Shown here piece by piece: positions 32,771-54,900 of a stretch of DNA of 64,000 bases (its first letter is position 1; each line of letters begins with the position of its first letter). This DNA comes from Rhododendron vialii (taxonomy: Eukaryota; Streptophyta; Magnoliopsida; Ericales; Ericaceae). The stretch spans positions 1,306,001-1,370,000 of the forward strand of contig NC_080561.1 in NCBI RefSeq assembly GCF_030253575.1, given 5' to 3'. The notes under the pieces are model-generated. The model searched no databases. It was not told where the DNA came from and saw nothing but the letters and a program-made list of their open reading frames with translations. A program made the position numbers and the translations under genes.

Positions 32771-32779
32771 GGACTTCGG

Positions 32780-33110
32780 CATCCTCTTTTGCCTCACTTC
32801 CATGTCCTAGTTGAGTATACCCCGAAAACTAAAGCACTCCAAGAAATCACGTCTGGTTCACATTGCATCGAGTAGTTTAGGGGCATTCTTTAATAGACTG
32901 CATTTGACATATATAAACCAAGGGCGACTGAAACAAAGGGATCTGAATTGATCCCAGATATGACGCAAAACCATGAACCTGTCAGCTTTGACGTTGGAGG
33001 GTAAAGAAATCGGAGGAAAAGCCTTGATATAAATATATCAAAATAAACTGAGGACTTGTATGAAATTACCCCTAAATGGAGTATTGAGTTTTGAGCAAGC
33101 ACATATCAGA
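32780..33110 (-). pseudogene. PPR protein 5' fragment, module copy A
   Basis: Translating the - strand gives fragments matching copies B and C: GSWFCVISGINSDPF, a membrane-distal stretch ending SNAVY, then CEPDVISWSALVFGVYS. The motif EPDVxSWSAL is typical of PLS-class pentatricopeptide repeats. An in-frame stop follows SNAVY, another occurs after RTWK, and the gene is cut off by the retroelement remnant. It is a dead fragment. Intact PPR genes of this class encode organelle RNA-binding proteins of about 600-800 aa. Confidence 0.7.
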
Positions 33111-33389
33111 GAGTGAAATCAGAGGTGATTGACGTAGAGTGAGAGAAAAATCTTGAAAAAAAAACTATCAAATAAAGACAGTGTCCCGCAAACGTGAGTT
33201 CCATATTGGCTTAAGATCGCGTCTAGACTCTTTTAGCATACGAATTGTATTGTGATGAAATAGTGTTTAGGAAAAACGAAACGCTTTTAGGAAAAATTAA
33301 ACATGCCAGAGAAACAAGTAACGCGGACACACAGGGAACGTGAGTCTAGGGACAGACTTCGCTGGTTGAACTTGCGAAGTAACAAGAAT

Positions 33390-33815
33390 CCTTTTTTTTG
33401 GCAATTTTCAAACTTGTTTTGGAATTAATTTGATGATCGGATTCGTCCTTATTTTATAAATTGTCGATTAAAATGTTTATGTGAAGTATAAACTCAATCG
33501 AGTACCAAATGATTATTAATCGGAGAAGAAGAATTCCAAAAAAAATGAAAAAAAGTTAGCCGGGTACAATTGATTACAACCCTGGTTAAAAAAGAAGACT
33601 TCTCCTCCGTTTTTGGAAAATTTCGACCTTAATTTGGAATTATTTTTATGATCCGATTTGTCCACATTGTAGAAATTGTAATTTGGAATGATTTTGAAAA
33701 ATATCAAGTCACTCGTAAACTTCTTGGTATTTAATCGGAGAAGATATATATCGAAAAAACTTGAGAAAAAGTGAGCAAGAACACTTGATTACAACTTCAA
33801 AAGACTTTTTTACTC
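33390..33815. repeat. Diverged tandem repeat in the module A spacer
   Basis: Two units of about 200 bases (about 33399-33603 and 33604-33810) share, in order: caattttcaa/aaatttcgac, tttggaatta, tgat(c)cgattt/cg, cc(a)cattgt or ccttatt, (aa)ttgt, tatttaatcggagaag, (a)aaaaatg/ttgagaaaaag, and ttgattacaac. The same pair is present in copies B (37370-37790) and C (46140-46565), so this duplication predates the triplication of the module. Confidence 0.7.
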
Positions 33816-33825
33816 CCTCCTCCTC

Positions 33826-33920
33826 GTCGTGTTATAACATCGTCGCCTGTCCGAGTCGACCTTCACCGTCGCCGTTCCGACCACTGAATCAGCCGGCAGA
33901 GTTGTGTTCGCGACTCGAGA
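33826..33920 (+). pseudogene. SET-domain (ATXR4-like) first-exon fragment, module copy A
   Basis: Carries the segment also seen in B and C: STFTVAVPTTESAGRVVFATR, where the family has ESAGRGVFATR, the start of a SET domain. Homology to the other copies stops at about 33918 (cgactcga) and is replaced by unrelated sequence. Only about 30 codons remain. Confidence 0.6.
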
Positions 33921-35324
33921 ATTTTCTTCCATAGTTGGGGGTATGGGCGGGGGAAGATTGGAGATAGAACTAACCTTTTGGCCATATGCACAGAGTGACT
34001 GCTCTCAGAAAACTACTGAAACAGTGGCCCCCTATATTTGTTTTGCTGCAGAACCATGCCCTCAAATCAAAGTCAAATGGCATCAGAAAGGGCAGGCTAA
34101 GAGACCTAATTCAATTTCTGTGCATGTTACCATAGTTCCTTCATTGATAGTCCAGAGCATCGGTATGCATAAAGGTTAGGTCTGACGGACCGACGCTTAG
34201 ACCTACACCCACACTGGGGACACGTGATGTAACAAGTGGAAGCTGATGTCCCGAAAATTTCATAATGATGGACATTACGCAACTTCCCTGACCCTAATCT
34301 GAAGTGGAAATGCCCGCAATTGTGTCTGGTCACAGTACCAAGGACAGTTGACTAAAAAGTCCACATTTATACGAAATCTCGACAGGGTAGAAATTCTATT
34401 GGAAAATAGCTGGGAGTTGACCTTCATTATGGTTTATGCTCTTGTTTCAAACTTAAAAGGCACCATATTACACTTGGATTGTACTGCCATAAAAGAAACT
34501 TCTAATCTGAATTTGGCAATGACAATGTGCTACTTTTGATCATGTATATTTAGCAAGTTCCACTCATACTGTGTTTCAGGTACTCACAATATCTCAATCT
34601 TAATTCCACTTGCTGAAGGTATATCTAGAAAATGTAAATCAAGATATGATACCAGGGACTTTACTCTTCAGCTTCTCCCTTAGGACACTTGAAAGGGTTA
34701 ATCTTTCCATGACATTCTTTATGGCAGAGTCCATGTGTTTCATGCACGAGTGTCTAGAAACCTGCCTCGTTAAATTCTCTTGAGAAGCTGATGACTACAC
34801 ATAACACAGAACACAAAGGCAGATACCGGTTCTTCGTAGGTGAGCTCGTCAGTGGCATTGATCACAATCAATAGCAATTTCTTGTCATTTAAACCCCATC
34901 TGAACCAAAGAAAGAAAGAAAGTAAACCAACCAAAAAATAAAAAAAACAAGTTCATAACTGTCGGTGCAGTTCATAATTGGCTCTTTTCTACCACAAATG
35001 AATATCATTGATGCTTCACTTGTAGCGGTAAGAATCATAGTTCTGCATCATTAGTCGATAATCTCCCCAAAAGTCCAAATTTAAAATGAGTGACTTTAAA
35101 ACATGCACTGTAGTGATTCCCAATTTTTGCTGAAACATAAATTGAGAGAGAATCATATGGCATCAACAGTTTCTCTTAAGCTAAAGCATCCCACTGAAAA
35201 ACAGAAAGTTATGTATCCAAGAGCAGAAAGAATATGCTTGTCACAGAACCACTTGGAGTTGAAAACATAACAGAAGAATTAAGTTGTGTAACACATCACA
35301 AATTTGAGCTAGCCATACTTATCG
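33921..35324. other. Unassigned DNA between module A and the ETO1-like pseudogene
   Basis: I recognise no gene. A 91-codon + frame at 33904-34179 starts in the module A SET remnant and runs into unknown sequence. On the - strand around 34810-34900 there is a splice-bounded-looking open segment (RWGLNDKKLLLIVINATDEL) that could be an exon fragment, but I cannot place it in a family. Confidence 0.4.
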
Positions 35325-36240
35325 TAATAGGCGGAGATACTGACGGAGGCGTACGAGGCTTTTCCCCTGATCTTTTGCTAACACGTGGTGCACAACAGCT
35401 AGAGAACCAATATCATCAACGCAGGACCACCGATCATAAAGCTGCATCCAGCAATCAGCTTGACTCCACTGCTAAACATGGTGGCGGAGGAACTCTACCA
35501 AGTGGTCCCCATGCAACTTTCCATGGAACATCATGTAATTAGGCTCGAAGGTCAGAATTGCCTGGACATCTATCAAGGCACATTCATAATCCCCCTTTGA
35601 AATAGAAAACCAAGCACATAGTTCAAGACAATCAGGAGAGACCCTATAACCAATTATTCTGTTGATCTCTTGGATGCCGGCATCAACATTACTTTCCTCC
35701 ATCATCAAAACAGCCCTACACTTATACGGGTAAGGAAGAGTGGGGTCCAATTCAGTTGCCGTATCCAAGTCCATCATCTTCTCTTTCCCACTACAGTATA
35801 GAGATCGCTCTTGATACATCCATCCAGCTGGTGAATAATCAGAAACGAGTGAGTTCATCATTTTGTAAGCTTCATATTTATGACCACGCTCATACTTAGT
35901 CCTTGCAACCCCTACTAATGAATAAACATGACCGGCCTCAACTGCTTCTTCAAACCACTTTTTGGGCATCCTTGTATTCCTGCCTTTCAAGCATTACACA
36001 ACCCAACTGGTGAAATGCAAGTTGTTTTTGCCAGCTTTCAGATGCACACTCTCCCAACCTCTCAAATAGCATAACAGTCATATTCAATTGCATATCCTCG
36101 TCCATAGCAATTTGGCTTAAAAAGTAGTTCAATGAAAATGAAGCATGCCCAGCTAAAGCTAATCTTTCCCTAGCCTCTGCACTACAAAAGAATCTCATCA
36201 CATTTGGGTTATGTACTGAACTTGTCAAAAAAGGATGAGA
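35325..36240 (-). pseudogene. ETO1/EOL-like (ethylene overproducer) pseudogene fragment
   Basis: The translated - strand follows the ETO1 family closely over about 300 residues: SVHNPNVMRFFCSAEARERL, GHASFSLNYFLSQIAM, SWQKQLAFHQLGCVMLER, then after a frameshift (around 35985) FEEAVEAGHVYSLVGVARTK, GWMYQERSLYCSGKEKMMDL and DLDTATELDPTLPYPYKCRA. A stop (TAG at 35472-35474) interrupts HGDHLVEFLRHHV, after which QWSQADCWMQLYDRWSCVDD and IGSLAVVHHVLAKD continue in the same frame. ETO1 is a BTB/TPR adaptor that targets type-2 ACC synthases for degradation. This copy lacks the BTB region and the C-terminal TPRs and has one frameshift and one stop. It is fused at its 5' side to PPR sequence. Confidence 0.88.
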
Positions 36241-37036
36241 CATTTCGATCCTCCCACATTTAGCGTACATGTCAACCAATGCACTGCCCACGTACACATC
36301 ACCAGAGATCCCACTTCTGATAGAAAAACCATGAGTTGCCTTCCCATGCATCAATGTTGCAGTGTGGTAAAATACAAGGGATTACCCCAGCAATCTGCAT
36401 CTCTCTGAATAGGTCCAAAAGCCTCCATGTCTTTGCCATTTTGACAACAAGGAGAGATCACTGACGTACAAGACATGACATTCAAATCTATCCCTTTGTC
36501 CTTGAGTTGCCTAAAACCATCAGTGCCTCATCCACACAGCATTTTCTCTAAAGCACTAGTGTACTACAAGCGCCTATATGTAACAAGTCCACTTCATGAA
36601 ACACTTGTGGCATCTGTGAACTACCACTGCACTTCCCATACATATCAATAAGGGCACTAACAATGCATTTGTCCGATTTCATTCCCATCTTGATCACAAA
36701 CCCATGGATTTGACTGCCCAAAATCGACTCAGTTTTGTTCGATCCCTTTATTCACCATGTCCTCAAAGACCTCTTTTGCCACACTCCCATGTCCAAGTTG
36801 AGCACACTCCGAAAACTATAAGCACTCCAAGAAACCACGTCTGGTTCAGACATTACATCGAGCAGTTTACGAGCATCCTTTAATAGAATGCATTCGACGT
36901 ATATATAAACAAACCAAGGACGACTGGACAGAGGGATCTGAATCGATCCCGGATACCGACGCAAAATCATGAACCTGTCATCCAAGCGTTTACGTTGGAG
37001 GATAAAGGCATCGGAGGAAAGGCCTTGATAAAGCAT
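36228..37036 (-). pseudogene. PPR protein fragment, module copy B
   Basis: On the - strand, in order: RLDDRFMILRRYPGSIQIPL, LLKDARKLLDVMSEPDVVSW, then in broken frames GSQIHGFVIKMGMKSDKCIV with SALIDMYGKCSGSSQMPQVF, and finally GKATHGFSIRSGISGDVYVG with SALVDMYAKCGRIEMS. Repeated (S)ALxDMYxKCG blocks mark PLS-class PPR repeats. The order resembles Arabidopsis PCMP-H21-type proteins (At1g20230), in which an IHGFVIK block precedes a THGF block. Several frameshifts and internal deletions are present. The last block runs in frame into the ETO1-like pseudogene near 36228-36240. Confidence 0.82.
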
Positions 37037-37369
37037 TCATGAAAATAAATTGAGGACTTAGTATGAGTGAATTGAGGAGGAGGTTGTTTTGCATCAGTGA
37101 AATCAGAGGTGATCGACGTAGAGCGAGAGGAAAATCTTGAGAAACAAAATAAAACTATCAGGTATTGATAAATGTTCTATTGAAAAGCGTAATCGCGAGT
37201 TCCGTATTGGCCTAAGCACGATGTGTATTGTGAAGAAATCGTGTTCAGGAAACACGCTTTGTGGAAGAATAAAACAAGTCCGGGATATAAGTAAGCGGGC
37301 TTAAGAAACGCGAGTTTGGTTGTACACATACTTCGCATATTCAACCTGAGAAGTATGAAGAAGAAGGCT

Positions 37370-37790
37370 TCTCCCCTTTTTTGGCAATTTTCAACCTTGT
37401 TTTGGAATTTATTTGATGATCCAATTCGTCCTTATTGTATAACTTGTCGATTATAATGTTTATGAAAAGTATGAGTTCAATCAAGTAACAAATGGTTATT
37501 AATCGAAGAAGAAAAATCCCTGAAAAAAATGAAAAAAAGTTAGCTGTGTACACTTGATTACAACCCTTATAAAAGAAGAAGGCTTCTCCTCAGTTTTTGA
37601 AATTTTCGACCATATTTTGGAATCAGTTTTACGATCTGATTTGTCCACATTATAGAAATTGTCAATTAAAATGAATTCGTCAGATTTCAAGTCAATCGGA
37701 TACTTCTTGGTATCTAATCGGAGAAGATATATGTCAAAAAAAATTAGAAAAAAATGAGCCGGTAACACTTGATTACAACCTTAAAAAGAC
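37370..37790. repeat. Diverged tandem repeat in the module B spacer
   Basis: The same two ~200-base units as in copy A, here about 37381-37580 and 37581-37790, sharing attaatcgaagaagaaaaat / ctaatcggagaagatatatg and ttgattacaaccctta / ttgattacaaccttaa. It lies between the divergent PPR and SET fragments and so occupies the ancestral shared promoter region. Confidence 0.7.
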
Positions 37791-37825
37791 TTTTTTCCTC
37801 CCACCTTCGTCCGTTATAACATCGT

Positions 37826-38044
37826 CGCCCGTCCAAGTCGACCTTGTCGCCGTTCCGACCACTGAGTCAGCCGGCAGAGATGTGTTCGCGACTTGGGCGA
37901 TCGGAGCTGATGAACTCATCCACGCGGCCACACCCATCGTCTCTTTCTCTCTCTACAACAACGGGTGCATGTTTGCTATTTGTGGCTCAGAAGACTCAGA
38001 AACAGAACCACTTCTGCAGCCAAGAATGTGAGGATCAATCTAAG
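37826..38044 (+). pseudogene. SET-domain (ATXR4-like) first exon, module copy B
   Basis: Encodes TTESAGRDVFATWAIGADEL and IHAATPIVSFSLYN, then, in a different frame, KQNHFCSQECEDQSK before a splice donor (tctaag then gtacaa). The SAGRGVFAT motif followed by a CxxC and a CSxEC zinc motif matches the N-terminus of ATXR4/SDG38-type SET proteins. The frame changes near 37970, and the conserved Gly of AGRGVFATR is Asp. No later SET exons (NHS or GEEL motifs) are found downstream. Confidence 0.65.
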
Positions 38045-39445
38045 GTACAATAAGCGGTTGTTGCGTCTAATTCAATTTCTATTGGCGCACATTCTATAAT
38101 AGCTTTTCGGGTTTTGATTTTATATGGCTTACGACATTAGAAATCGATACTACGGTATATGCCTCCCACGTGTTTGACATTTGGCTTCTGAAGAAGTCCT
38201 TTTCCAGCCTATGGTTTTTGTGAAGTCTTTTGATTCAATATTGTTACTTAGAAAAGCATTGAAAGATGTGTTGGACAGATGTGGATAGCACAAGATGCCT
38301 CTTATAAACTTGAACTCCATTTCTAAATTCATAGCTTTTGCGGTTGGTTGTGCGTGGTAAGGCTTCTACTATAACCTCGTATTCGAAATGTGAGGTTAGA
38401 CCAATCTTTATGTCGTATAAATCTACCGGACTCATTGTAAACTTAGCTCTATATAGCTTCAGATCATTTATTGGTTGCTTGTAATGGTTTCGAGTATTGC
38501 AATGCTTCAGAAAGACATTTCACTACAAAGAGGAAGAAGATGGCTTCACTTTGACAGGGTTGGCAACAAGCCTAGTTAAACAAAGTAGCGGGTTATTCAC
38601 ATAATTTTGGGACTCCGCATGGGCGCAGGGTAGGTTGCAGTTGCACATGAGTCAGGGTGTTGGATAGCATTTAGTCTGAATACCTGGTGCAAGAGTCTGT
38701 ATTTCTGAAAATGGGAGATTTTATTTCTCTAGATGTTGGTTCAATTCTGTTTTCTAGCTTTGGCTCTCCAACTATTACTTAATTACTTGGTTCGAGTCCT
38801 GCACGTACACCACAGGCTTCTTACAAGTATGCTATACCAAGAGAGAAGTGGACTGTATTTTCCCATCTAAACGTATGGAAGAGGAAGGCTAGTGTGAGTG
38901 TTGAAGGTCTTATGGTCCTTGCAAGGGCCACCTTACTAGAATTTTGGGGGTGGGTAGTTTCTTTACCTTGGAGGATTAAGAAGCCTGGAAATTTGTAGAG
39001 GCCATGGGCCATTTCACTTGCCCCTCGGCCCCTGATCCTTTGGAGTCTAGTTTTATAGGTAAAAGAATAATGTGCTGAAGCATGGTCATGAAAATACTAA
39101 CCGTTTGGAAGTTATGGAACAGTATTTAGTGAAGAAACTTTGGTTTTCCTATGTCGAAGTAGTTTTAACGCTAATAGTCAGATGAAAATGATGATTTCTG
39201 CCTAATTAGAATGCAGACTTCCTTGGCTATGTGGTTGATGGGTTTGGTTCAGAGATCTGGTGATTAAAATTCTTGGGTAGTGGTTGGCTGGTTGCAATAA
39301 CTAACCAACCAATCATGATTCTCAAGCCACTATACATTGCAGAGCTTCTAGATTACCTATTTTCCTTTTCCAAATCATTTTTTTGAATAATTTGCTAATT
39401 TTTTGAATTAATTCCTGTGCTGAATTGGATGGTACTTCTCCATGA
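38045..39445. repeat. Downstream flank of module B, duplicated in module C
   Basis: This stretch matches 46823-49597 plus 53084-53150 and 54087-54183 once later insertions in C are removed. Shared landmarks are cttttcgggttttgatttta, gtgtttgacatttggcttct, gttggacagatgtgga, gtcctgcacgtacaccacag and gaattaattcctgtgctgaa. A 63-codon frame in C (46949-47140, DIWLLKEVLSRPMIFVKSFD) has its counterpart in B interrupted, so any exon here is not functional in B. Its family is not recognised. Confidence 0.85.
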
Positions 39446-41040
39446 GATTAGTACTGTCCAGACTGGAACTTTTCCGGAAGTAGCACGCAATAAAAGATTG
39501 TTCATCTGCAGCAATGTTACTTGGCCGATGAATTCCGAGTGAACTTAATTGACAAAAAACTGTTAAGTTGGGCTTGCTTCTACTGACCTCGTGTTAGTTG
39601 TTTGGCTGGAAGCTGAAAGCTTGAAACCTGTACGATAATGGGAACCTCGCGAGGAATATATAAATAAGGGTACATCCACTTATTTCCTTGCTTAAATGAC
39701 CTAACCACTATGCCAATTAAGAATATGAGACGCCTGCAGTTTTTTTGCTTGCTTTTTTACCCAATTAAGTGTTCAGGTAATTGGTTATGATTCAGTGATT
39801 ATCTATTCGAAGAACCTCATGGACACTCATCTCTGTAGGGAAAGGAACTTATCCAGTGGCAAGAGCGAGGAATCTCTAACAGTGTGGGTCAATATTTAGA
39901 AAAGCTAGTTGCCATATCTAGTAGCATTTGATCTTCTTATTTTCTAGTCGAATTTGTATTACTACTATTAACTTGTTAGTGATTGATTGCCCTTAGGGGA
40001 GCAATATTATGCAAAAAATATTTCGATATTCATGAATTATGCATGGAAGTTTGCAAATGTGTATTCTTAATAGAGAAATGTGTATCGAAAGTAGCTTTTT
40101 AGGATGGAATGAATATTATCTACTCTTATGGCTGATGGTTAGTGAAATTCTAGTGTTAAAAAGAGGGTTAAGTCATAGCTTCAGGGGGATTGCTTCATAC
40201 TTTAGGCTTAGGCAATTTCATTTATGTTATGGGGTCGAATTTGCAAAATGTCGCAAAATTCTAAAGTTCATGGAGAAATGTACAAGTCAGTGGGGTCTCT
40301 AGATCCCACTTGACCCGTGGTAGCTCCGCCCTTAAGCTTAACTTTATTTTGTAGTTCTGTAAGGAGCTCATGGAAAATGTATTTGAAGTTCTCTCTTATT
40401 TTTCATAACCATCAGACACGGGCTTGTGGATTTTCTTATATTGATTTTCTGTATTTGCTTGTAAGACCTTTTTTCCCTTTTGGTTTTTTTCCTGTTTGAG
40501 TTAACATACTGGAGACAGATCTTATGCTGGTATACTCATTTTCTGTCATGAAGCTGCTTTTCACATGCATGCACTCTTGTGCCCAAGCGTTGTGTTGTCA
40601 CTTAATTATTGCCAGATTTGGTTACTTTTTCTGTATTACTTAACTATATTTTTTGGGCTCATGTAGGAGTTGGAAGGAAGAGTTGGCAACATTCCCTACT
40701 AGCTCATCTGCTGGTGCATTAGCTTTATCGTTGCAACTTGCAACATTTAAGGATTGCGAAATTGCTGGCGAAGATATGGCCGCACATTATCTCCCAAGAA
40801 AGCTTTGCCCTTACAGAATGGGCGAGTTGGGTCTTTTACTGGGAAGCTGGACACTACTGTTGTGAAAGAGTGAGTGGCGACTGTGTTGCTTGAGTAAACA
40901 GTGTCATGGTAGATGCCTGCTACGCAATAGCAACCAGCTCCCCCCGTCCAAAACGTCCATCGCCACTATCCTAGCCAAAGCCTTTAAGTGGGAGTTCATT
41001 GTGCAGCCAACCCCTACTGCAATCCGTACCCAGCCCAGCC
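39446..41040. other. Unassigned DNA downstream of module B
   Basis: No recognised gene. Near 40665-40865 an open segment after a splice-acceptor-like atgtag reads SWKEELATFPTSSSAGALAL and ends AGEDMAAHYLPRKLCPYRMG. It looks protein-like but I cannot place it. The rest is AT-rich. Confidence 0.4.
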
Positions 41041-41525
41041 ATGCCCTTCTCGGATGGAACTCAATGTTGATGGGAGTGGTAGCGCTACAGATTCAGAGGC
41101 AAGCGCTGGAGGCTTAGCTAGGGATTGGAAAGGAAATTGGATCACCAGGTTTTCGTGCAAACTGGGCTCTGTCCCGGGTCTCTCATATGAGCTTTGGGCT
41201 ATTTATCATGGACTCAAAACATTTCAAACAGGAATACATATCCTTGGTGGAAATCGAATTAGATGCCGCTAGTGCTATCAATGTAATCAATTTATTACAA
41301 GCAATCACCAACTTCACATCATCACTGTTTGCAGGCCCCTTCTCCAAGAGCTGGGCAATCCTCCGGTTAAGCATGTAATGCAGGAATGCAACAAGTGCGC
41401 TAGCCCAAGAAGCGAAAGTGCACCGTTTTCCTTTTTTAGTTTATCTTGCAATTCTGTATATCTATTAAATTCCAAATGTTGGAGGACCAGAGAGGTGCTT
41501 CTGAACCATGTACTCTTATTTCTTT
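41040..41525 (+). mobile_element. LINE 3' end with RNase H-like domain
   Basis: The + strand reads MELNVDGSGSATDSEASAGG then GLARDWKGNWITRFSCKLGS and YELWAIYHGLKTF, then after a frameshift VEIELDAASAINVINLLQ, and in another frame CRPLLQELGNPPVKHVMQEC then NKCA. These are the successive motifs (DGS, GG, E-LWA, ELDA, H-x-N-x-CAD) of the RNase H domain at the end of plant LINE ORF2. Frames are broken. The 3' part is repeated at 42405-42650. Confidence 0.7.
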
Positions 41526-41529
41526 TCTT

Positions 41530-42412
41530 TTCTTTTTTCTTGATTAATTAGTGTTTGCTAATTCTCTTAGAGCATTTCATACATCATATAGGAGTTTCAC
41601 ACATAGCTCACGGTAAATCCGAATGTGAATATATGCTTGCTAGGTGAATGTTCCACTAAATATGTTGGATACAGAGTCCATATCCTTGTCCGAGTGTTGA
41701 GTGTTTTAGTTATTTGGAAACGTAGGTCATGCCCATGCTTCTTATCGTTATCATTGTGAAGTAGAGAACTAGATCATACTCATGATGTCAGAAATCTCTG
41801 CAGCTGGTTCTTTTTTCTCTCTGGTAAGTTGAACTTTTATGCATATGGTCTTGCCACCCACATTTGGTTTGAGCTGTTCAACCCTTGTGGGTGTGTTGAT
41901 GATGAGGAACCTCTTGCCCCCTTATGGGAGACTATCTGCACTTTGGAGTGTATTCCAAAAGAATCTCAAACCTGTCATTCTCTAGTCTAGCTAACCTTGT
42001 ATGTTTTTGCCATGTGCAAAACCTTCAACATGTGAGATATGCAAAAGAAAATATTTGACAATAAAGTAAGTCCAACGACCTTGTTTACCTTTTTTGTTGA
42101 TGGATTTTTGAAGCAATCCTTAGCAGTAATGAGGAGTCCAAGCTGGTGCCATTTTATTTATTTCTATCACTCGGTGTTAGAGTAGGTTTTCTAGTCATTT
42201 TGTCAACTTTATCACTTTGATTTCCTCCAGACATCACATCCCTAGTTCTCTCTATGCAGCCGGAACACTAGACTATGTATATAAGGTTCATCGCTTTCTT
42301 TAAGCACTCTATCTTTCATTTTACATAGCATGATATTTTGTTTGGAAGATAAGCTAGTATGGAGTTGTATCGACATTAAAAGGAATATTTGATCTTAGAT
42401 ATGCTTGCTTTT
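41530..42412 (+). repeat. Left arm of an ~880-base inverted repeat
   Basis: Starts near cttgattaattagtgtttgc and ends near gatatgcttgcttt. Its reverse complement lies at 43104-43985. Arms look about 96-97% identical over sampled stretches. The arm includes a protein-like segment, NFYAYGLATHIWFELFNPCG, whose intact-looking orientation is in the right arm on the - strand; the family is not recognised. Confidence 0.93.
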
Positions 42413-42650
42413 ATTACAAGCAATCACCAACTTCACATCATCACTGTTTGCAGGCCCCTTCTCCAAGAGTTGGGCAATCCTCCGGTTAAGCATGTAATGC
42501 ACGAATGCAACAAGTGCGCTAGCCCAAGAAGCGAAAGTGCACCGTTTTCCTTTTTTAGTTTATCTTGCAATTTTGTATATCTATTAAATTCCAAATGTTG
42601 GAGGACCAGAGGGGGTGCTTCTTATTCCCGAACCATGTACTCTTAATTTT
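42405..42650 (+). mobile_element. Second copy of the LINE 3' end (in the inverted-repeat spacer)
   Basis: Matches 41293-41510 almost base for base, from ttattacaagcaatcaccaa through ttccaaatgttggaggacca. It begins within the RNase H region and continues to an A-rich tail near 42680. It directly abuts the inner end of the left inverted-repeat arm, so the LINE end flanks that arm on both sides. Confidence 0.85.
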
Positions 42651-43103
42651 ATTTATGCTAAGTTTATGTTTAACCCAAAAAAACAGTGTCACGATGAAAA
42701 AAATAACCATCTGTTTTTCATGTTAAAAACCTCTGGGCCAGGTGGTCAGCCTATTGGCAAATGACAAGAAGCTGAGTTCTTGATTATGTTGAGCCATATT
42801 CCCCAATACCTGCTAAATGCTGACTTCCAACACTTCCATCTCTTAAAATAATGGGCAATATATCAGTTTCAAATTTCAGAAAATGGCAATTCCATTTTCT
42901 CCTACGAAGCTTTCAGTTTCCTGGGAGACAATAAAAACATGTCCAAATGAGATCGCACGAGATATTGTTATGTCCACGTATCAGACAATGTCTGTTTGAA
43001 CTAATGCCAAACCAAATAAATTCCTCCTTAAACCTATAAAACATATCTTCTCTAAGTGGGGTTACTGAGACTTTTCCTGAATTGTCTCCCACAACAGTCA
43101 TCA

Positions 43104-43985
43104 AAGCAAGCATATCTGAGGTCAAATATTACTTTTAATGTCGATACAACTCCATATTAGCTTATCTTCCAAACAAAATATCATGCTATGTAAAATGAAA
43201 GATAGAGTGCTTAAAGGAAGCGATGAACCTTATATACATAGTCTAGTGTTCCGGCTGCATAGAGAAAACTAGGGATGTGATGTCCCGAGGAAATCAAAGT
43301 GATAAAGTTGGCAAAATGACTAGAAAACCTACTCTAACACCGGGTGATAGAAATAAATAAAATGGCACCAGCTTGGACTCCTCATTACTGCTAAGGATTG
43401 CTTCAAAAATCCATCAACAAAAAAGGTAAACAAGGTCATTGGACTTACTTTATTGTCAAATATTTTCTTTTGCATAACTCACATGTTGAAGGTTTTGCAC
43501 ATGGCAAAAACATACAAGGTTAGCTAGACCAGAGAATGACAGGTTTGAGATTCTTTTTGGAATACAACCCAAAGTACAGACAGTCTCCCATAAGGGGGAA
43601 AGAGGTTCCTCATCATCAACATACCCACAAGGATTGAACAGCTCAAACCAGATGTGGGTGGCAAGACCATATGCATAAAAGTTCAACTTACCAGAGAGAA
43701 AAAAGAACCAGCTGCAGAGATTTCTGCAATCATGAGTATGATCTAGGTCTCTACTTCACAACGATAACGATAAGGAGCATGGGCATGACCTACGTTTCCA
43801 AATAACTAAAACACTCAACACTCAGACAAGGATATGGACTCTGTATCCAACATATTTAGTGGAACATTCACCTAGCAAGCATATATTCACATTCGAATTT
43901 ACCATGAACTATGTGTGAAACTCCTATGTGATGTATGAAATGCCCTAAGAGAATTAGCAAACACTAATTAATCGAGGAAAAAAGA
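43104..43985 (-). repeat. Right arm of the ~880-base inverted repeat
   Basis: Reverse complement of 41530-42412. On the - strand a 76-codon frame (43456-43686) reads NFYAYGLATHIWFELFNPCG, VDDEEPLSPLWETVCTLG and so on. In the left arm the same reading is interrupted, so this arm may be nearer the source. The protein family is not recognised. Confidence 0.93.
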
Positions 43986-45226
43986 AGAAGAAATATGCTA
44001 CCAAATCTGAACTTTTGGCCTTATTCCCATCTACTTAAGACAGAAATTAACTGAAACCGATACTTAGACACATACTCGAACTCGACACTTGTACCCAAGT
44101 CCATGACATTAGGAAGTTATAAACTGGTTAACAGAGATTGCCAATGCTAATTATGACCATCCTCCACAGAGGACCAAACTCCTATTGCAAAGCCGAACCA
44201 GACATGACGGACACTTAACCTTCGCACCAAACTAGTCCTTTGTAAAGGTAGTGTGAATTTGAAAGGATAAAAAGGAGGAGACATGACTTCCCTTGGACAA
44301 GAATTGATTAAATATGACCCAGTGCAACTTTCTAACGAGTGTAGTAAGTGATAAGTGACAATATCTCCTCAAACCAATGAAACAACAAACCATAAGTCAG
44401 CAAGCAAAGGTAATACCTAGACGGGCCAGACCTAAAGCATGAACCCTGAGTATACAACATCACGACCATTCTCTTTCACAAGATTAATACAGTATTTAGA
44501 AGTTGTACCCATTCCATCTGAAGTTAGAGCCCTGTGGAAGGGAAAAATAACAAAAAGCGAAGAAGAAAGAGTCAGCACCATAAGAAATTGAAGGAGATAA
44601 CTGTGGGCATTCTGTAATAGAGAGGGCATAATATAAATTCTTTCTAAGGGTAAAAGAAAACCATAGATGCTGAAATCTTAAGAAGTAGAGATACCAACGA
44701 AAGCACCATCCATTGTTCTGAACAATAAGGGCTTATTTACATTATCTGGGACTGGTGTAAAGCATGTAGACACTGTGTATATTGTTGACTTTGATGGGCC
44801 CAAACAAGCAGGAAGAACGCAATGAGAAACACGAGTGTGTAACGCATTCTCAGGGATAGTTAAAAGCCATGATATAGCTTGCCTTGGTGTCATAGAACTT
44901 CAAAAAGAATCGTGACTTCGGAACAGACAACTTGGTTTCAAGTATCGCGGAAATTGCAGCAATAAGGTTCTTAATTCACATCTGGAGTGAGGCTCCCAAT
45001 GGAAACCAACTAGCTGCTGGCTGCTCAGTTCCACCAAAAGCCATGGGTACTGAACCCTTCAACACAATCATCACATACTTTAAATAAAGAAACAAAACCT
45101 TCCTTTTTAAACCAGGTTGTGGGAAAAAGTGGAGTTCCAAAACACGTCCGACAAATAAGTAATGCGGTTGTACAAAACGCGAGTTCGGTAGTGAATAGAC
45201 TTGGCATCTTCCGTGTGCATAACTGA
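43986..45226. other. Unassigned DNA with possible exon fragments on the - strand
   Basis: Two - strand open segments look protein-like: 44893-44680 (RQAISWLLTIPENALHTRVS, then PDNVNKPLLFRTMDGAFVG, followed by a gt donor) and 44629-44440 (RALTSDGMGTTSKYCINLVK). They are in the same orientation as the protein-like segment in the right inverted-repeat arm and may be parts of one broken gene. I cannot name the family. A short copy of module spacer sequence (acgcgagttcggtagtgaat) lies near 45177-45196. Confidence 0.35.
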
Positions 45227-45575
45227 CTATGTCAATGTTATTCTGCCTCTAAATGATGAGACTTTCTTCCTCGAAGATGTTAAGTCTTTTCTGAATTTCT
45301 CCAGCCTTGGGTTAGCTCCTAGTGGCAGTCCCAAATAATTAGGGAGTGGTTTAACTTTGCACCTCATCAACACTGCAGCAAAATCTCTTGTAGACACCTC
45401 ATTTACCCCCACACCACTGACCATACCTTTATGATAATTAATTTTTAACCCAGACATTATCTCAAAACTCCTTAGTAGCCCCTTGATAGCAGTAATTTCT
45501 TCGATATTTGCATTTCCGAATAGTACGGTATCATCAGCAAATTGTGGATAAGTTAATGGCATCTCCCCATTGCCC
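45227..45575 (-). mobile_element. LINE reverse-transcriptase fragment inserted in PPR copy C
   Basis: The - strand reads PQFADDTVLFGNANIEEITA, then LRSFEIMSGLKINYHKG, then LPNYLGLPLGANPR. The FADD box (catalytic Asp pair), the SGLKINYxKS-like block and the YLGLPLG block are successive motifs of plant non-LTR reverse transcriptase. Both ends of the RT domain are missing. It runs in one open frame with the PPR fragment (whole frame 45227-45757). Confidence 0.85.
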
Positions 45576-45812
45576 AAAATTGAGCATATCCCGTAAACTA
45601 AAGCACTCCAAGAAACCACGTCTGGTTCAGATATTGCATCGAGCAGTTTATGGGCATCTTTTAAAAGACTGCATTTGACACATACATAAACCAAGGACGA
45701 CTGGATAAAGGGATCTGAATCGATCCCAATACCGACGCAAAGCCATGAACCTATCATCCATGACGTTGGAGGATAAAGGCATCAGGGGAAAGGCCTTGAG
45801 TTTTGAGCGCAA
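45576..45812 (-). pseudogene. PPR protein 5' fragment, module copy C
   Basis: On the - strand, GSWLCVGIGIDSDPFIQSSL, then CVKCSLLKDAHKLLDAISEP and PDVVSWSALVYGICS. It is the same PLS-class PPR segment as copies A and B, with no stop in this stretch. Just after the last Ser it changes to LINE reverse-transcriptase sequence. Upstream sequence shows the start of the gene (SFSSNVMDDRFMALRRY) only in another frame. Confidence 0.78.
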
Positions 45813-46139
45813 GCATAGATTAGAGAGTGAATCAAGAAGGAGGAGGAGGTTGGTTGGATCAGTGAAATCAGAGGTGATCGACGTAGAGTGAGAGGAAAAT
45901 CTTGAAAAACAAAATAAAACTATCAAGTATTGATATATGTTCTATTGAAAACCGAGTTCCGTATTGGCATAAGCTCGCGACTGGAACAAGCAATGTGTAT
46001 TGTAACGAAATCGTGTTCAGGAAACACGCTTTATGGAAGAATAAAACACGTCCGAGAAACAAGAAAAAGCGGGCTTGAGAAACGCGAGTTCGGTAGTAAA
46101 CATACTTCTCATCTTAACTTGCGAAGTGTCAAGAAGAAG

Positions 46140-46565
46140 GATTCTCCCCTTTTTTGGCAATTTTCAAACCTGTTTTGGAATTAATTAGATGATCCAATTC
46201 GTTCTTATTGTATAACTTGTGGATTATAATGTTTATGTAAATTATGAATTCAATCGAGTAACAAATGGTTATTAATCGAAGAATAAAAATATAAAAAAAA
46301 AATGAAAAAAAGTTAGCTGAGTACACTTGATTATAACCCTTATTAAAGAAGAAGGCTTCTCCTCCGTATTTTGAAAATTTCGACCTTATTTTGGAATTAT
46401 TTTTATGATCCGATTTGTCCACATTGCAGAACTTGTCAATTAAAATGATTTTGTTTGATTTCAAGTCAATCAGATACTTATTGGTATTTAATCGGAGAAG
46501 AAACATGTCAAAAAAATTTGGAAAAAAGTGAACCGGGAACACTTGATTACAACCTTAGAAGACTT
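46140..46565. repeat. Diverged tandem repeat in the module C spacer
   Basis: Same two-unit structure as in A and B, here about 46150-46345 and 46346-46560. Shared landmarks include ttattaatcgaagaataaaa / tatttaatcggagaagaaac and ttgattataaccctta / ttgattacaaccttag. It sits between the divergent PPR and SET fragments. Confidence 0.7.
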
Positions 46566-46605
46566 TTTTCCTCCCGCCTTCTAGTCGTAGTCCTTTATAA
46601 CATCG

Positions 46606-46822
46606 TCGCGTCCAAGTCGACCTTCACCGTCACCGTTCCGACCACTGAGTCAGCCGGCAGAGGTGTGTTCGCGACTCGGGCGATCGGAGCTGGTGAACTC
46701 ATCCACGCGGCCACACCCATCGTATCTTTCTCTCTCTACAACAACGAGTGTTTGCTGTTTGTGCCTCAAAAGTCTCAGAAACATAACCACATCTGCAGCC
46801 AAGACTGTGAGGAAAAATCTAA
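46606..46822 (+). pseudogene. SET-domain (ATXR4-like) first exon, module copy C
   Basis: The best preserved of the three: STFTVTVPTTESAGRGVFAT, then RAIGAGELIHAATPIVSFSL, then KHNHICSQDCEEKSK before the donor (tctaag then gtacaa). Between the two parts the CxxC motif is readable only in another frame (VCCLCLKSL near 46745-46770), so small indels have broken it. The SET core exons are not found downstream. It could still be transcribed, because the spacer and donor are intact. Confidence 0.65.
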
Positions 46823-47185
46823 GGTACAATGAGTGGTTGTTGCATCTAATTCAATTTCAATTGGCGCACATTCTATAATAGCTTTTCGGGTTTTGATTTT
46901 ATATGGCTTACGGCATTAGAAATCGATGCTAAGGTATATGCCTCCCACGTGTTTGACATTTGGCTTCTGAAGGAAGTCCTTTCCCGGCCTATGATTTTTG
47001 TGAAGTCTTTTGATTCAATATTGTTACTTAGAAAAGGATTGAAAGATGTGTTGGACAGATGTGGAAAGCACAAGATGCCTCTTATAAACTTGAACTCCAT
47101 TTCTGAATTCATAGCTTTCGCGGTTGGTTGTGCATGGTAAGGCTTCTACTAGAACCTCGTATTCGAAATGTGAGGTTAGACCAAT

Positions 47186-47616
47186 CAGGCCTGGCCCTGT
47201 GATTTTCGAGGCCCTAGGTAGGGTTTCGAAAATGGGGCCTCTCATTTGTTAGTATAAAAATTTGTTGTTCACTATTAGGAACAAACCAGCTCTGTAGCTT
47301 GGTGGTAAAGTGGTTGTACCACTTACATTGGTACCTTAGGTCGCAAGTTTGAGCCAAGACAGCTGCATTTTGAAACCTTTTTTAGTACGGGTAACAAAAA
47401 TGGCCTTCAAAATTAAAGTTGCCAAGGATCGAACTTGTGATCCCTTGTTCAAAACAAGCACGCCTCTACCACCGTGCTACATCAACCTATTTGTAAAATA
47501 ATTTGCATACATAATATTTAATACGTACATCCAACTATTTTGGGGCCCTATTATTGGGCCCAAAACGGGAGGCCCTAGGCGGTCGCCTGGTGGGCTTATG
47601 CCCAAGGCCGGCCCTG
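47186..47616. mobile_element. hAT-type MITE with 8-bp target duplication
   Basis: The 431-base element begins CAGGCCTGGCCCTG and ends GGCCGGCCCTG, imperfect inverted repeats of the hAT CAGGGCC type. It is flanked by agaccaat at 47178-47185 and 47617-47624. The empty site is visible in the B paralogue near 38395 (ttagaccaatctttatg). Inside are two tRNA-like stretches: a forward one at about 47285-47360 (tagcttggtggtaaagtgg, then ggtcgcaagtttgagcc) and a reverse one at about 47425-47495, whose complement has gtagcacggtggtagaggc and agttcgatcc. Confidence 0.93.
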
Positions 47617-48475
47617 AGACCAATCTTTATGTCATATAAGTCTACCAGACTCATTGTAGACTTAGCTCTATATAGCTTCGGATCATTTATTGGTTGCTTG
47701 TAATGGTTTCGAGTATTGCAATGCTTGAGAAAGACATTTCACTACTGAGAGGAAGCAGATGACTTCACTTTGACAGGGTTGGGAACAAGCCTAGTTAAAC
47801 CAAGTAGTGGGTTTATTCACATAATTTTGGGACTTCGCATATCCACGTGCTGCAGTTGCACATGAGTCAGGGTGTTGGATAGCATTTAGTCTGAATACCT
47901 AGTGCAAGAGTCTGTATTTCTGAAAATGGGAGATTTTATTTCTCTAGGTGTTGGTTCAATTCTGTTGATTATTTCTAGCTTTGGCTCTCCAACTATTACT
48001 TAATTACTTGGTTTGAGTCCTGCACGTACACCACAGGCTTCTTACAAGTATGCCATAGCAAGAGAGAAGTGGACTGTATTTTCCTATCTAAACGTATGGA
48101 AGAGGAAGGCTAGTGTGAGTGTTGAAGGTCTTATGGTCCTTGCAAGGGCCACCTTACTAGATTTTGGGGGCGGGTAGTTTCTTTACCTTGGGGGATTAAG
48201 AAGTAAAATCTTGCGCACCTGTGCTATTTACGGGAAATTTATAGAGGCCATGGGCCATTTCACTCGCCCCTCGGCCCCTGATCCATTGGAGTCTCTTTTC
48301 TCCTAGTTTATAGGTAAAAGAATAATGTGCTGAAGCATGGTCATGTAAATACTAACTGTTTGGAAGTTATGGAACAGTATTTAGTGAAGAAACTTTGGTT
48401 TTCCTACGTCAAAGTAGTTTTAACGCTAATAGTCAGATGAAAATGATGATTTCTGCCTAATTAGAACGCAGACTT

Positions 48476-49514
48476 TTTTTTCTTTTTTTTTTGGGTAAGT
48501 TAAGATTTTATTACCAAACGTAGGAGCTATCCCCTGAACACAACATACAGACAAGGAAAGAGAAAAGGGTTAGGAACAAGCTCCCTCCCCTAACAACATA
48601 TGAACTAGAACAGCTCTAGACTAGAAAACACCCTACTAACAAAAACAATCAACAGAGAACGGCACATGAAATGTTCCAAATCAGACATAAATGTTGGTGA
48701 GCAGCTGATCGCTTCATCCGCCACAAGCTCAAACAACTTCTCAGATCAGCAATTACTCTCTGAAGGACCTCATCTGGATTTGCCCGTTTCCCTTGAAACA
48801 CCCTGAAATTTCGTTTCCGCCATAAGTGGTACAAGGTGGCTGCAAGGGGGAGTTTGAAAAGAGCATGAAAAATACCCTCACCCCTTTGTTGGATACTGCC
48901 CAATCCATCTCCGGATCAAGGCTACCTGGAACTCTATCCACATTATTTTTGGCCATACACTGTTTCCAAACATAAGAGGAAAAAGAACAGGCGAAAAAAA
49001 GATGATGATGGCTCTCAAATTCTGCTTCACACAAAACACACGAATTTTCAGAGATAACCCCCCAGGATTGAAGCCTAGCTTTGGTAGACAACCTTCCCCA
49101 CGCAGCTATCCACTCAATAATAGCCCATCTAGGCACATGTCTTTTAAACCAAATAGCTTTCCACCACCGAATTTCAGGCGGAGGAATACGGAACTCCTGC
49201 CAAGCTGATTTGACTGTAAAGTTGCCACTTGGGTGCAATGTCCACACCACAGAATCCCGCTGAGCAGGATTAGGGAGCCAGGAATTTGGGATACCTTCTC
49301 TTATCCCATTAAACACCCTATTCCTACTGTGTGGCCAGAACCAGGTGCCATTCCGAATAATTGAGGCCACTCTAGAGATAATACTTCTCAGTAAATTCTC
49401 GTCCATTCTACCAGCAAATCTGTCTTTAAGAATTCCTAAAGGATGCCAATTATCAAGCCACAGAAAAGTGTCATGACCATCCCTAATGATGGATTTAATC
49501 CAAGGCTGAACATC
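48476..49514 (-). mobile_element. 5'-truncated LINE with zf-RVT domain
   Basis: Inserted on the - strand: a T run at 48476-48492 is the A tail, and cagactt flanks both ends (48469-48475 and 49515-49521). The B paralogue shows the empty site near 39215. The remaining coding part reads WTLHPSGNFTVKSAWQEFR, then WWKAIWFKRHVPRWAIIEW, RLSTKARLQSWG, and CVLCEAEFESHHHLFFACSF with WKQC. This is the zf-RVT (zinc-binding in reverse transcriptase) domain at the end of plant LINE ORF2. One frameshift (near 48890) separates it from AATLYHLWRKRNFRVFQGK. The A tail is preserved, so the insertion looks young. Confidence 0.92.
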
Positions 49515-49597
49515 CAGACTTCCATTGTTATGTGGTTGATGGGTTTGGTTCAGAGATCAGGTGATTAAAATTCTTGGGCAGTGGTTGGCTGGTTGCC

Positions 49598-51650
49598 ATT
49601 TGGTTCAGTCTTGATGGTACAAAGCGATGGTTTACATGCTTTTGTGTCTCAAGTTGTTTGGCAAGAACATTCCTGAAATCTAGATGTTATAAGAGGGACA
49701 TGGAACATCTCCGCTTCACGTCATGTCTGCACTATTGTTCACGGATTTACTGAACAAGCTTTCCGATCAAAAAATAATCCCAGTTGGCACTCCTGCTTAT
49801 GGAAAGCTAAAAGGGCTGCACACGAGCATATGTTTCTGTATCTTGACACTTTATGTAGGATTAGGAGAGAGAGCACTGGGGGCGGGGCCTAGCATGTAGT
49901 TAGTGTTCCTTGTAAATTTTTTACTCAACAGGTAATTTATGAAGAGGAGAACATTAGGGCTTTCCTTTTTATTTATAGCCTAAGGTCAACTTTTGGTCTT
50001 CATTTGGGAGGGCAAATGCTCATTGACATAAGTTTTTGCAAACTACGCACGTATGGCACATGAACTGTTAAAATGGATGGAGATCTATAAACCAAGTTGG
50101 GGTTATGTGGTCAAGTTTAAACCTCAGGGGTAAAGTGCCGGTAAAGTGGACCTTTCCCAAATTCATACGTATCGTGGTCTAGTACTTTTGCACCAGTACA
50201 TTTTTTGTGCATCATTCGCTGGTTGCTTTTAATTCAGCCTACTTGTTTCATTTTTCTTCTTTGATATGCTTCATGGCGAACTACCACGACCTATAAATCT
50301 TGATTCGGGTGTATTTTAGGTTTACATCATCCTGAATTACTGTCCAATTGGCGAAATTGGTGAGAAAAGGAAAGAGGCTAGTAGGGAAACAAAAACAAGC
50401 CTAAGGGTGAAGTTTGGGATAAAAAAAGAAAAAAAGAAAGAGAAACAGAAAACAAAATTGATAATGGCATGGCTTCTTTCCATCTTGTTTGGATAGTTCA
50501 TGAGGAAAAGAAGAGCAAGACGTGTTATTCTCTCCCTTGCTTGGAAAAGATAAACGATGAATGAGAGACAGTAGATAGTTTTATCTTGTGCTTATTAGGG
50601 AAAGGAATATGGTTTGTTCCCATTTCTCTCCTCGAAAGCTATCTAAACTGGTGATTATGCAGGAGAGAGTCCATTCTGTTTTCTTTCCTATAAAGTTACT
50701 CCATCTTTACTTTCTCTCTACTCTCATCAGCACCACAACTGCAGTGAATTTGTTCCTCTTCTTCGGTGGTTCAATCTAGCCGAGTTTGCAATATAGTCGA
50801 TCTTATGATGTCTGATGAAAAAACAATCGTGGTCAAAGCAACTATCGAGTTATTGTGTACATAAATTTTGGGAAAGCAAATATGAGAGGGCTGTGGACAT
50901 TCGATGGAAATTACGCTTAAGCGAAAGGGATTGTGGAAGCTGATCACCACATGCATAGACAAAAAGTATTGCTGTTTTTCTCATTTACAATGGAGAGTGC
51001 TAACCTTTCAGTTTGAATTTCAAAACACCACCCCATTACATTTTGATGACCACACCCCATTACATTATTTCCCCACTTGAAACCCACCTCACCCTTTGTA
51101 GAACATTCGATGGAAATTACGCTTAAGCGAAAGGGATTGTGGAAGCTGATCACCACATACATAGACAAAAAGTATTGCTATTTTTCTCATTTACAATGGA
51201 GAGTGCTAATCTTTCGGTTTGAATTTCAAAACACCACCCCATTACATTTTGATGACCACACCCCATTACATTATTTCCCCACTTGAAACCCACCTCACCC
51301 TTTGTAGAATAACTATTTGGTGGTCTTGGGGCACCGCCACATGGTGCCCCAATACTTCTAAACTCTACACATTTTTGAGGAGTCCACCGCTAAGTGTATG
51401 GACTCCACAAAAACGTGTGGAGTGAGGAGTGTTGGGACACCACTTGGCAAAACCCCGTCGAATGCAATTGTAGAAGTTCTTTAGGTTTTTTTTTTTTAAT
51501 TTTAAACTGACAATAAGATTATAAGTACATAACCTTTTGATATCTTTTATCTTTTAGTTGAAAAGCTTGTTGAGCTTTTGACGTGTTTTTTGTTGAACAA
51601 GGTTATCAATTGTCATTCCTATTGATTTTTTTTTTATAATTGGTAAGAGA
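49598..51650. other. Unassigned inserted DNA in the module C flank
   Basis: This stretch is absent from the B paralogue. I see no recognisable gene. It contains a 206-base tandem duplication (50897-51308) and, after it, a small sequence with repeated ggcaccgcc/atggtgcccc motifs near 51320-51445 that may be a short MITE. The rest is AT-rich and of unknown origin. Confidence 0.45.
50897..51308 (+). repeat. Two-copy 206-base tandem duplication
   Basis: Copies at 50897-51102 and 51103-51308, both starting acattcgatggaaattacgc and ending cctcaccctttgtagaa. I count about four substitutions (for example acatgcatag/acatacatag and ctaaccttt/ctaatcttt), so identity is about 98% and the duplication is recent. 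Within each unit the phrase accccattaca is itself repeated twice. Confidence 0.95.
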
Positions 51651-53080: not shown

Positions 53081-53150
53081 AGTCATAATTAACCAATCAC
53101 GATTCACAAGCCACTATACATTACAGGTTCTACAAAGCTTTTAGATTAAC

Positions 53151-54086
53151 TAAAGGTGGCAAATGGGCGGGTTGAAACGGATCACGGGTCGAATATGGAT
53201 AGATTGTAAGCGGGTTGAAACGGGTTGGGTCGAATATGGGTTAAGTCAAACCCAAACCTGACTTGACCCAACCCGGGTTTTTTTATTTTTTTAAAACCCT
53301 TCCCCGCTTCCTTCTTTTCCTTCTCAAAAAAGTTAAAGTATAAGATGAACACTTTGTCAAAAAAGTTATAGTCGATCAAATTTTGCTAAAAATGGTCCAG
53401 TTATTTTTATTAAAAGAAAAAATATGTTAATATCATTTTCCACAATAACAATATTTAAACCGGTGGATAGCAAATTCAAGACACAAAAATAAGAGCATAA
53501 AATATATAAGGACTGGGAATGTGAGTGCGATGAGACTTAGGAGTGAGCTCTCACCATAAGCTAGTAAAAAAAGATGCGAGTGCACTCTTGACTGAGATTC
53601 AGAAGCTTGCTCGAAAAAAAAATGATGCAAGTGCAATTTTGTTCAAATATGTTATATGGACCAAAAATTTTAAAAAGAGTTAAGATAAAAATCACTGATA
53701 CCAAAGATTTCGAACCTTTTTCTTTTATAATAAAAAAAATGTTTATATAAGCACCCCCAATTTATTCTCACTGAGTCTATTTATATTGTTGTAGTTACTA
53801 TCAATTGTAAAGCACTGAATCATTTTTCCAGCCCTAGCTCTCACACATGGTCCATACAACTGTACAAGGGGCCTGTAAAAGGGGGAATTGGATTGTAGCG
53901 AGAGACGGGAGAATGGATGGGTTTTTAAAGTTGAACCCATTTTCAATCCATCTAAACCCATAAAATCAGTATGTTTATTAAGTTGGCTCAATTAGAACTC
54001 ATATTTAAATATGAGTAAATTTGGGCTAATTATAAATAGGTGAATTTAGGTGAAACCACATTACTGAACCCAAATTGCCACCTCTA
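53151..54086. mobile_element. hAT-like element with TA(A/G)AGGTGGCAA ends
   Basis: The 936-base element begins taaaggtggcaaatgggcgg and ends aacccaaattgccacctcta, so the ends are inverted repeats of the form ta(a/g)aggtggcaa. Flanks are agattaac (53143-53150) and agattacc (54087-54094), an 8-base duplication with one mismatch. The B paralogue has a single agattacc near 39350. The subterminal region has repeats of gggtt, gaaacgg and gtcgaatatgg. No transposase is seen, so it is a non-autonomous copy. Confidence 0.85.
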
Positions 54087-54186
54087 AGATTACCCATTTT
54101 CCTTTTCCAATTCTTTTTTTTTTTTTTTTGAATAATTTGCTAAATTTTTTGAATTAATTCCTGTGCTGAACCGGACGGTACTTTCC

Positions 54187-54900
54187 AGAATAGAGTTAAT
54201 CTGGATTGAAATCCATCATTGACAAGAAAGGAGAAACATGAATTCATCTCCAGGAATTCAGACCAACAAAGAGAGAAGGAGCTCAAATCCTCTATACCCA
54301 TTTTCGCTATTAGAGATGTTCTGATGCATTTCTTGCGTGATCCAATGAGCGAAAAAGCACCGAAAACTAAATCAAAGAAACCCAATAAAAGGGAAAAACT
54401 TTAAACCAAAGAAACTGATTTACAATGCTGCGATAACAATTAGAGAATAGCTGGGTGCATCGTATTGGAAATATTACATCAATGGATAACTTTTGCTTAC
54501 ACATTACGACAAATACTGACCTAAAATTTGCAGGTGCTGCCATTAATAAGACCAACTAAAGCTCTAATGAGATGAAAACCCGACTACGCAATGTAAAAGA
54601 AGCTCCTTAATGAAGAGACAAGTTACGAGAAACCAACTGCATGTTCCTATGTTCCTGTACCTGCATATGGTCATGCTAATGAAAAACACAGCTTCCTAAA
54701 GAATTTATCCCAAGTGGAAAAGCGAGGAGGATAAACGGCAAAAAAAAAAAAAAAAATTGAAAAAAAATGGGCATGGACTAAAAAATATAGGTCCCTTGCC
54801 CGGGCAAAAGGAAAACATATGGTACAGAAGGTTCCGGTGAAAGAATGTGCCAAAGTGTTTAAGGGTGATGGGGATTCAAGTGTCAGACACCATGTTTTCT
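54187..54900. other. Region downstream of the myosin gene
   Basis: Contains the 3' UTR of the - strand myosin gene at its right side. A 61-codon + frame (54219-54404) has no recognisable domain. Bases 54090-54183 still match the B flank; after that the paralogy ends. An A run lies near 54740-54757. Confidence 0.5.

Follow-up and report, generated by a model that had tools for sequence, protein, structure and literature searches.

What exactly has been copied three times in this part of a Rhododendron vialii chromosome? The question is raised by a 64,000-nucleotide stretch of contig NC_080561.1 (C5:1306001-1370000, hereafter the window), in which a minus-strand fragment of a PPR gene, a spacer and a plus-strand first exon of a SET-domain gene recur head to head in three copies, A, B and C. 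The original prediction held that the unit being copied is a bidirectional promoter with the start of a gene on each side. A search of the whole genome (532.6 Mb, 13 contigs) points to a different answer: A, B and C are quite probably the local representatives of a family of dead gene starts dispersed through the genome. The family derives from two facing 5' gene parts, one of a PPR gene and the other of an ATXR4-like SET gene. The thing multiplied appears to be a dead ATXR4 promoter-plus-exon-1 segment, with the PPR part optional.

The repeated layout itself is borne out by self-BLAST of the window. A (32783-33915) aligns with B (36770-37893) at 76.7% identity, A (32811-33917) with C (45580-46678) at 77.3%, and B (36795-38406) with C (45577-47186) at 87.0%. 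All three matches are direct and run continuously through the spacers, against the possibility that the regions would not align there. The aligned sequence spans PPR, spacer and SET parts, and the copies extend over 32783-33917 (A), 36770-39298 (B) and from 45577 on (C). Two tandem units of about 215 bp are found in each of the three spacers and, being present in every one, must be older than this copying. B and C have a further 1.2 kb in common on the SET side that A does not have, and in C this sequence is broken by a hAT-like miniature inverted-repeat transposable element (MITE) and a piece of a long interspersed nuclear element (LINE). The MITE (47187-47616) is flanked, as judged by eye, by the 8-bp target duplication AGACCAAT, and B shows the empty site. 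The parts of the copies and their immediate neighbors are given below, where C3 is another contig and L009, L013, L015, L021 and L027 belong to a set of 20 stretches (L009-L028) fetched from elsewhere in the genome.

32783..33117, minus strand: copy A, PPR 5' fragment; right limit set by the match to L013
33118..33829, no strand: copy A, spacer, old ATXR4 promoter; tandem units 33395-33580 and 33610-33795
33830..33917, plus strand: copy A, SET exon 1; ends after FATR, remainder cut off
35322..36186, minus strand: ETO1-like fragment, attached to the PPR part of copy B; the two are also associated in L013
36187..37094, minus strand: copy B, PPR fragment with internal deletions; its ATG at 37094-37092 aligns with the ATG of the PPR gene
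37095..37815, no strand: copy B, spacer; tandem units 37358-37576 and 37573-37789
37816..38044, plus strand: copy B, SET exon 1, start codon missing and frame shifted; splice donor GT at 38045
38045..39298, plus strand: copy B, intron-side sequence, common with C
45139..45211, plus strand: isolated 73-bp spacer piece, 86% to the family consensus
45577..45877, minus strand: copy C, PPR 5' fragment; matches C3:319384-319576 at 82% and C3:319680-319758 at 77%
45878..46594, no strand: copy C, spacer; tandem units 46131-46338 and 46346-46554
46595..46823, plus strand: copy C, SET exon 1, start codon missing; followed by splice donor GT at 46824
46824..49599, plus strand: copy C, intron-side sequence, broken by the hAT-like MITE at 47187-47616 and a LINE piece at 48476-49511 (zf-RVT)
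49941..50760, plus strand: further segment, all or part of which also follows the SET core in L009, L013, L015, L021 and L027

Several details of this arrangement can be added. The PPR part of A (32783-32998) corresponds to C3:319354-319576 of a PPR gene at 83%, and just to the right of A lies an H/ACA small nucleolar RNA of family snoR100 (34039-34146, minus strand), scoring 75.5 bits against a gathering score of 50. The ETO1-like fragment next to B was matched at 76-95% by tblastn with an ETO1 probe, and window 35455-36418 is 90.8% identical to L013 2553-3542. A chimeric open frame of 143 codons (35953-36381, minus strand) leads from PPR sequence into ETO1-like sequence. The sequence at the end of B (39302-39442) resumes at 53086-54187, where a 0.9-kb insertion, hAT-like to the eye, interrupts it. 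Left of the PPR fragment of C, LINE reverse transcriptase sequence was read by eye, with no support from Pfam.

The origin of the parts can be traced within the same genome. Protein probes match the minus-strand part to an At1g20230-like PPR and the plus-strand part to exon 1 of an ATXR4-like SET gene; ATXR4, also called SDG38, is a SET-domain gene of Arabidopsis. Rather than the exons of an intact SET gene, tblastn with the ATXR4 protein matched only residues ~13-103, in A, B and C; no later SET exon was found in the window, the remaining matches (E >= 0.21) looking like chance. Pfam gave a SET match for C at E = 0.02, under the cut-off, none for A or B, and none above the cut-off for the PPR pieces. 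Both identities rest on matches to genes of the same genome, at 81% DNA identity for ATXR4-like and 81-83% for the PPR gene. Two ATXR4-like genes, at C3:324182-329588 and C1:40971153-40976505, each give five exon-wise matches, and in both exon 1 is open from ATG to donor; 'intact' means for these genes exon matches plus an open first exon, not full gene models. The PPR gene, which has a 582-codon open stretch (C3:318533-319732, minus strand) and its ATG at C3:319741, is the divergent neighbor of the C3 ATXR4-like gene (ATG at C3:324056), with 4.3 kb between the start codons. An apparently intact divergent PPR/ATXR4 pair, which the original prediction suggested looking for, thus exists on C3.

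The spacer can be traced in the same way. Its family consensus matches sequence upstream of ATXR4 at 68% on C1 and 66.5% on C3, tandem units included, and since both ATXR4 genes have the tandem repeat in their upstream sequence too, the window spacer is old ATXR4 promoter. Relative to C1, C3 carries an extra 1.7 kb between the spacer-matching region and the ATXR4 gene, and no PPR sequence was found in the ~5 kb looked at upstream of the C1 gene (L049, L042). A reading in which the PPR copies lack ~100 N-terminal residues, suggested by comparison with Arabidopsis and grape proteins, was dropped. The C3 PPR gene has its own ATG at that place, and B and C do therefore contain the start region of the PPR gene.

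The three copies belong to a much larger set. The spacer and SET exon of B match at least 47 stretches genome-wide, some of which are parts of one copy; the number is a lower bound, coming from the 40 of 80 candidates that were scored. Merging of matches no more than 50 kb apart leaves 29 clusters on 10 contigs, several of which contain more than one copy. Twenty-five cores were compared, namely A, B and C and 22 from the 20 fetched stretches, which span 19 of the 29 clusters and include flanks of ~4 kb for most cores and, at the shortest, 0.1 kb (right side of one L010 core). The common core corresponds to about 37260-38220 of B, with weaker similarity up to ~38500. About 8 of the 25 cores keep some PPR sequence next to the spacer, clearly so in A, B, C, L013 and L027 but no more than short pieces in L017, L021 and L023; this count is biased, since the copies were retrieved with a spacer-SET query. 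In the remaining copies the left flank varies. Segments that accompany the core at several loci correspond to window 34187-35464, 41524-44286, 49941-50760 and the ETO1-like fragment, and Pfam gave no name above its cut-off for the other segments travelling with the family. An inverted repeat lies between B and C (41524-42417 and 43097-43993; 0.9-kb arms, 96% complementary, 0.7-kb loop). Parts of it recur next to SET cores in L009, L011, L015 and L020, and it could give rise to a long hairpin RNA.

The copies have several lesions in common. Within the fetched flanks, no SET residues past ~105 were found at the 20 loci. The start codon region of ATXR4 falls in a gap in 26 of 26 sequences (the 25 cores and an older relative, L045), in an alignment of stretches from B 37770 on where L021 has an unaligned ATG. 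A frameshifting deletion of about 22 bp in SET exon 1 is found in all 20 judgeable cores; it cannot be judged in A, L011, L017, L026 and L027. A 5-bp stretch is gone in most copies; a counterpart survives in L028 and L045, and the alignment of several copies is uncertain there. On the PPR side, a 32-bp deletion and an adjacent CGA-to-TGA change (Arg to stop) are found in 5 of 5 aligned copies (A, B, C, L013 and L027; L017, L021 and L023, with their short PPR pieces, lie outside this alignment), and both are missing from the C3 PPR gene and from L045. A second PPR deletion is common to B and L013, as is the adjoining ETO1-like fragment. A functional ATXR4 gene is expected to have a start codon, an open frame and the SET core exons, a combination not found in A, B, C or any fetched core. 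Since lesions on both sides are common to the copies, the founder was very likely disabled in its PPR and SET parts before spreading; the lesions would have arisen in the founder first, and the spread would have followed.

The later history of the copies is that of sequence under no selection for protein. Across 33 SET codons, 22 copies show 155 substitutions, of which 29.7% are synonymous, compared with 30.5% expected without constraint. This count leaves out A, which is unrelated past its cut-off, and the short rows L022 and L027; including A (208 changes, 30.8%) gives the same conclusion. The SET exon evolves neutrally, without sign of coding constraint. Trees of the core are star-like: terminal branches are long and internal ones very short, the shape that a burst should leave, and the spread may have been one such event. 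With outgroups included, terminal branches of the family measure 0.05-0.19 and internal ones less than 0.03, except for the grouping of L028; A is left out of this tree and is contained, with its unrelated sequence past the cut-off, in a second, similar one. The median Kimura two-parameter (K2P) distance within the family is 0.22. Local arrays such as A-B-C may then have grown by tandem duplication of members of the genome-wide family. B and C diverge by 13.1% left of 37766 and by 5.2% to its right (199 differences at 2387 sites; a contrast reached in 0 of 500 permutations), which points to exchange, or to sequence of mixed ages, within the local array. B and C would have exchanged, or have in common, a younger right half.

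A few observations weigh against this account. L028 and L045 group outside the remaining family with a support of 0.89, and as L028 also keeps the 5-bp counterpart, the family is not uniform. The C1 and C3 ATXR4 genes are separated by a K2P distance of 0.18, and each lies at ~0.37 (median) from the family. Being closer to one another than to the family, they indicate that the family left before C1 and C3 split, and C3 should be considered the nearest intact sister, not a proven parent. A TAA is found inside one C3 and two C1 ATXR4 exon matches, where it was taken for intron sequence. Finally, the left and right ends vary among copies and none are common to all, so no single mobile unit is defined.

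The location of the copies bears on how they spread. For 28 of the 29 clusters a contig end is no more than 6.2 Mb away, and the median distance is 3.2 Mb. Control medians are 7.1 Mb (PPR-hit clusters) and 6.9 Mb (SET-hit clusters), with 34 of 79 and 10 of 25 clusters, respectively, inside the same limit. The distal bias is significant in a rank test against either control (p = 2.9e-6 for PPR, 7.3e-5 for SET). The 6.2-Mb limit was picked post hoc, and the rank test is independent of it. When clusters are merged within 1 Mb, 19 of 20 family clusters are distal compared with 28 of 63 controls (p = 4e-4). The controls comprised 27 of 32 SET rows and 82 PPR rows, drawn for PPR from the best 91 of 1234 candidates, with rows on C13 and repeat rows of the same PPR genes left out.

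By what means, then, was the segment carried? Introns are absent from processed pseudogenes, whereas in many copies the sequence past the donor of SET exon 1 is kept and partly matches the intron of the ATXR4-like genes, which indicates spread as DNA and not through processed RNA. A non-autonomous transposon of the Pack-MULE, CACTA or Helitron type whose ends went unrecognized would account for the dispersal over 10 contigs, the star-like tree, the retained intron, the joining of several gene fragments (PPR, ETO1, SET) and the position of two copies upstream of genes. The ends differ between copies, however, and a scan of 17 cores with ~4 kb on each side gave 0 hits for a terminal inverted repeat with an 8-11-bp target-site duplication, compared with 0, 0, 0, 0, 1 and 0 hits in controls; its seed of exactly 12 bases could let diverged repeats, or elements reaching beyond the fetched flanks, escape. 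A transposon is a serious but tentative candidate. Alternatively, repeated segmental duplication and exchange among chromosome ends could have spread and trimmed the segment with no transposon involved, a possibility that we also put somewhat short of probable. The distal position of 28 of 29 clusters (34 of 79 and 10 of 25 in the PPR-hit and SET-hit controls), the clusters with more than one copy, a 13.47-kb tandem duplication at C7:1.905 Mb, the joint travel of several unrelated segments and the variable ends all speak for it, but the common unit is often only ~1 kb, which is small for such events, and a burst would not be expected. The choice between the two carriers is about even, and either is compatible with a dispersed family of dead fragments.

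Other candidate element ends did not hold up. An inverted spacer beside the core, considered as a terminal inverted repeat, occurs only in L010 and L018 among L009-L028, and there reflects two cores facing away from each other. A sharp break between L018 and L019 proved to be one edge of the tandem duplication on C7 (1.905-1.927 Mb), whose units are offset by 13.47 kb and 96-98.5% identical, with the edge at the center of an inverted core pair. L015 compared with L009 suggested a nested insertion, and L013 shows that L009 is more likely a deleted form.

The interpretation in the original prediction is supported in part. It was right that the copies are truncated (SET exon 1 only, with PPR 5' fragments), that the SET splice donor survives in B and C (GT at 38045 and 46824), and that facing gene ends have been copied, in fact many times. 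The part without support is the identity of the unit as a bidirectional promoter with two gene starts, from which the copies might still fire both ways and yield antisense or chimeric RNA. The spacer does consist of ATXR4 promoter sequence, B retains an ATG aligned to the PPR start, and genes on the opposite strand face the core at two loci. These are a TBCD-like gene in L009, whose presumed first exon lies 85 bp away and first in-frame ATG ~270 bp, and an Sft2-like gene in L012 (108 bp and ~235 bp); the presumed first exons are open stretches found by reading, as Pfam matches only later exons. Yet the SET start codon region is gone in 25 of 25 cores and in L045, the spacer is no better conserved across copies than exon and intron, most sampled copies are without PPR sequence, and even the intact pair has its start codons 4.3 kb apart. 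A bidirectional promoter as the copied unit is accordingly unlikely. Less probable still is that the ATXR4 promoter-plus-exon-1 segment has been favored, either as a divergent promoter upstream of other genes or, through its many antisense-prone copies, as a source of small RNA against intact ATXR4 and PPR genes. The neighbors that could be cited are the TBCD-like gene (L009), the Sft2-like gene (L012) and the PPR sequence in the window, and the idea that the segment lands, or is kept, upstream of such genes is a long shot as well. The window copies most likely have no function.

Known systems offer partial parallels. Helitrons have 5'-TC and 3'-CTRR ends with a hairpin and insert between A and T. 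Pack-type DNA transposons and Helitrons likewise join mostly non-functional fragments of host genes and disperse them with their introns, and the captured fragments are described as usually non-functional pseudogenes (PMC13317346). The family differs from Pack-type transposons in that the scan gave no terminal inverted repeat with an 8-11-bp target-site duplication and the ends vary. As in plant bidirectional gene pairs, the PPR and ATXR4-like genes on C3 are divergent neighbors. One study of such pairs uses start sites no more than 1000 bp apart (PMC2648788), whereas the C3 start codons are 4.3 kb apart (the definition concerns transcription start sites) and the copies have no SET start codon. 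Compared with ATXR4 itself, two relatives in the same genome have five exon-wise matches, while family copies, within the fetched flanks, have only a start-less exon 1. In the portions of the literature available to us on ATXR4/SDG38, bidirectional promoters, Pack-MULE and Rhododendron Helitrons or gene fragments, no description of this fragment family was found.

These results turn a local curiosity into a datable family, in which a promoter and first exon were copied dozens of times, apparently after the death of the gene. If the copies are silent, they are ordinary genome debris. The family lends itself to a clean test of the fate of orphan promoters, which could remain active, could silence the intact genes related to them or could simply decay, and of the means by which gene fragments travel among the outer regions of chromosomes.

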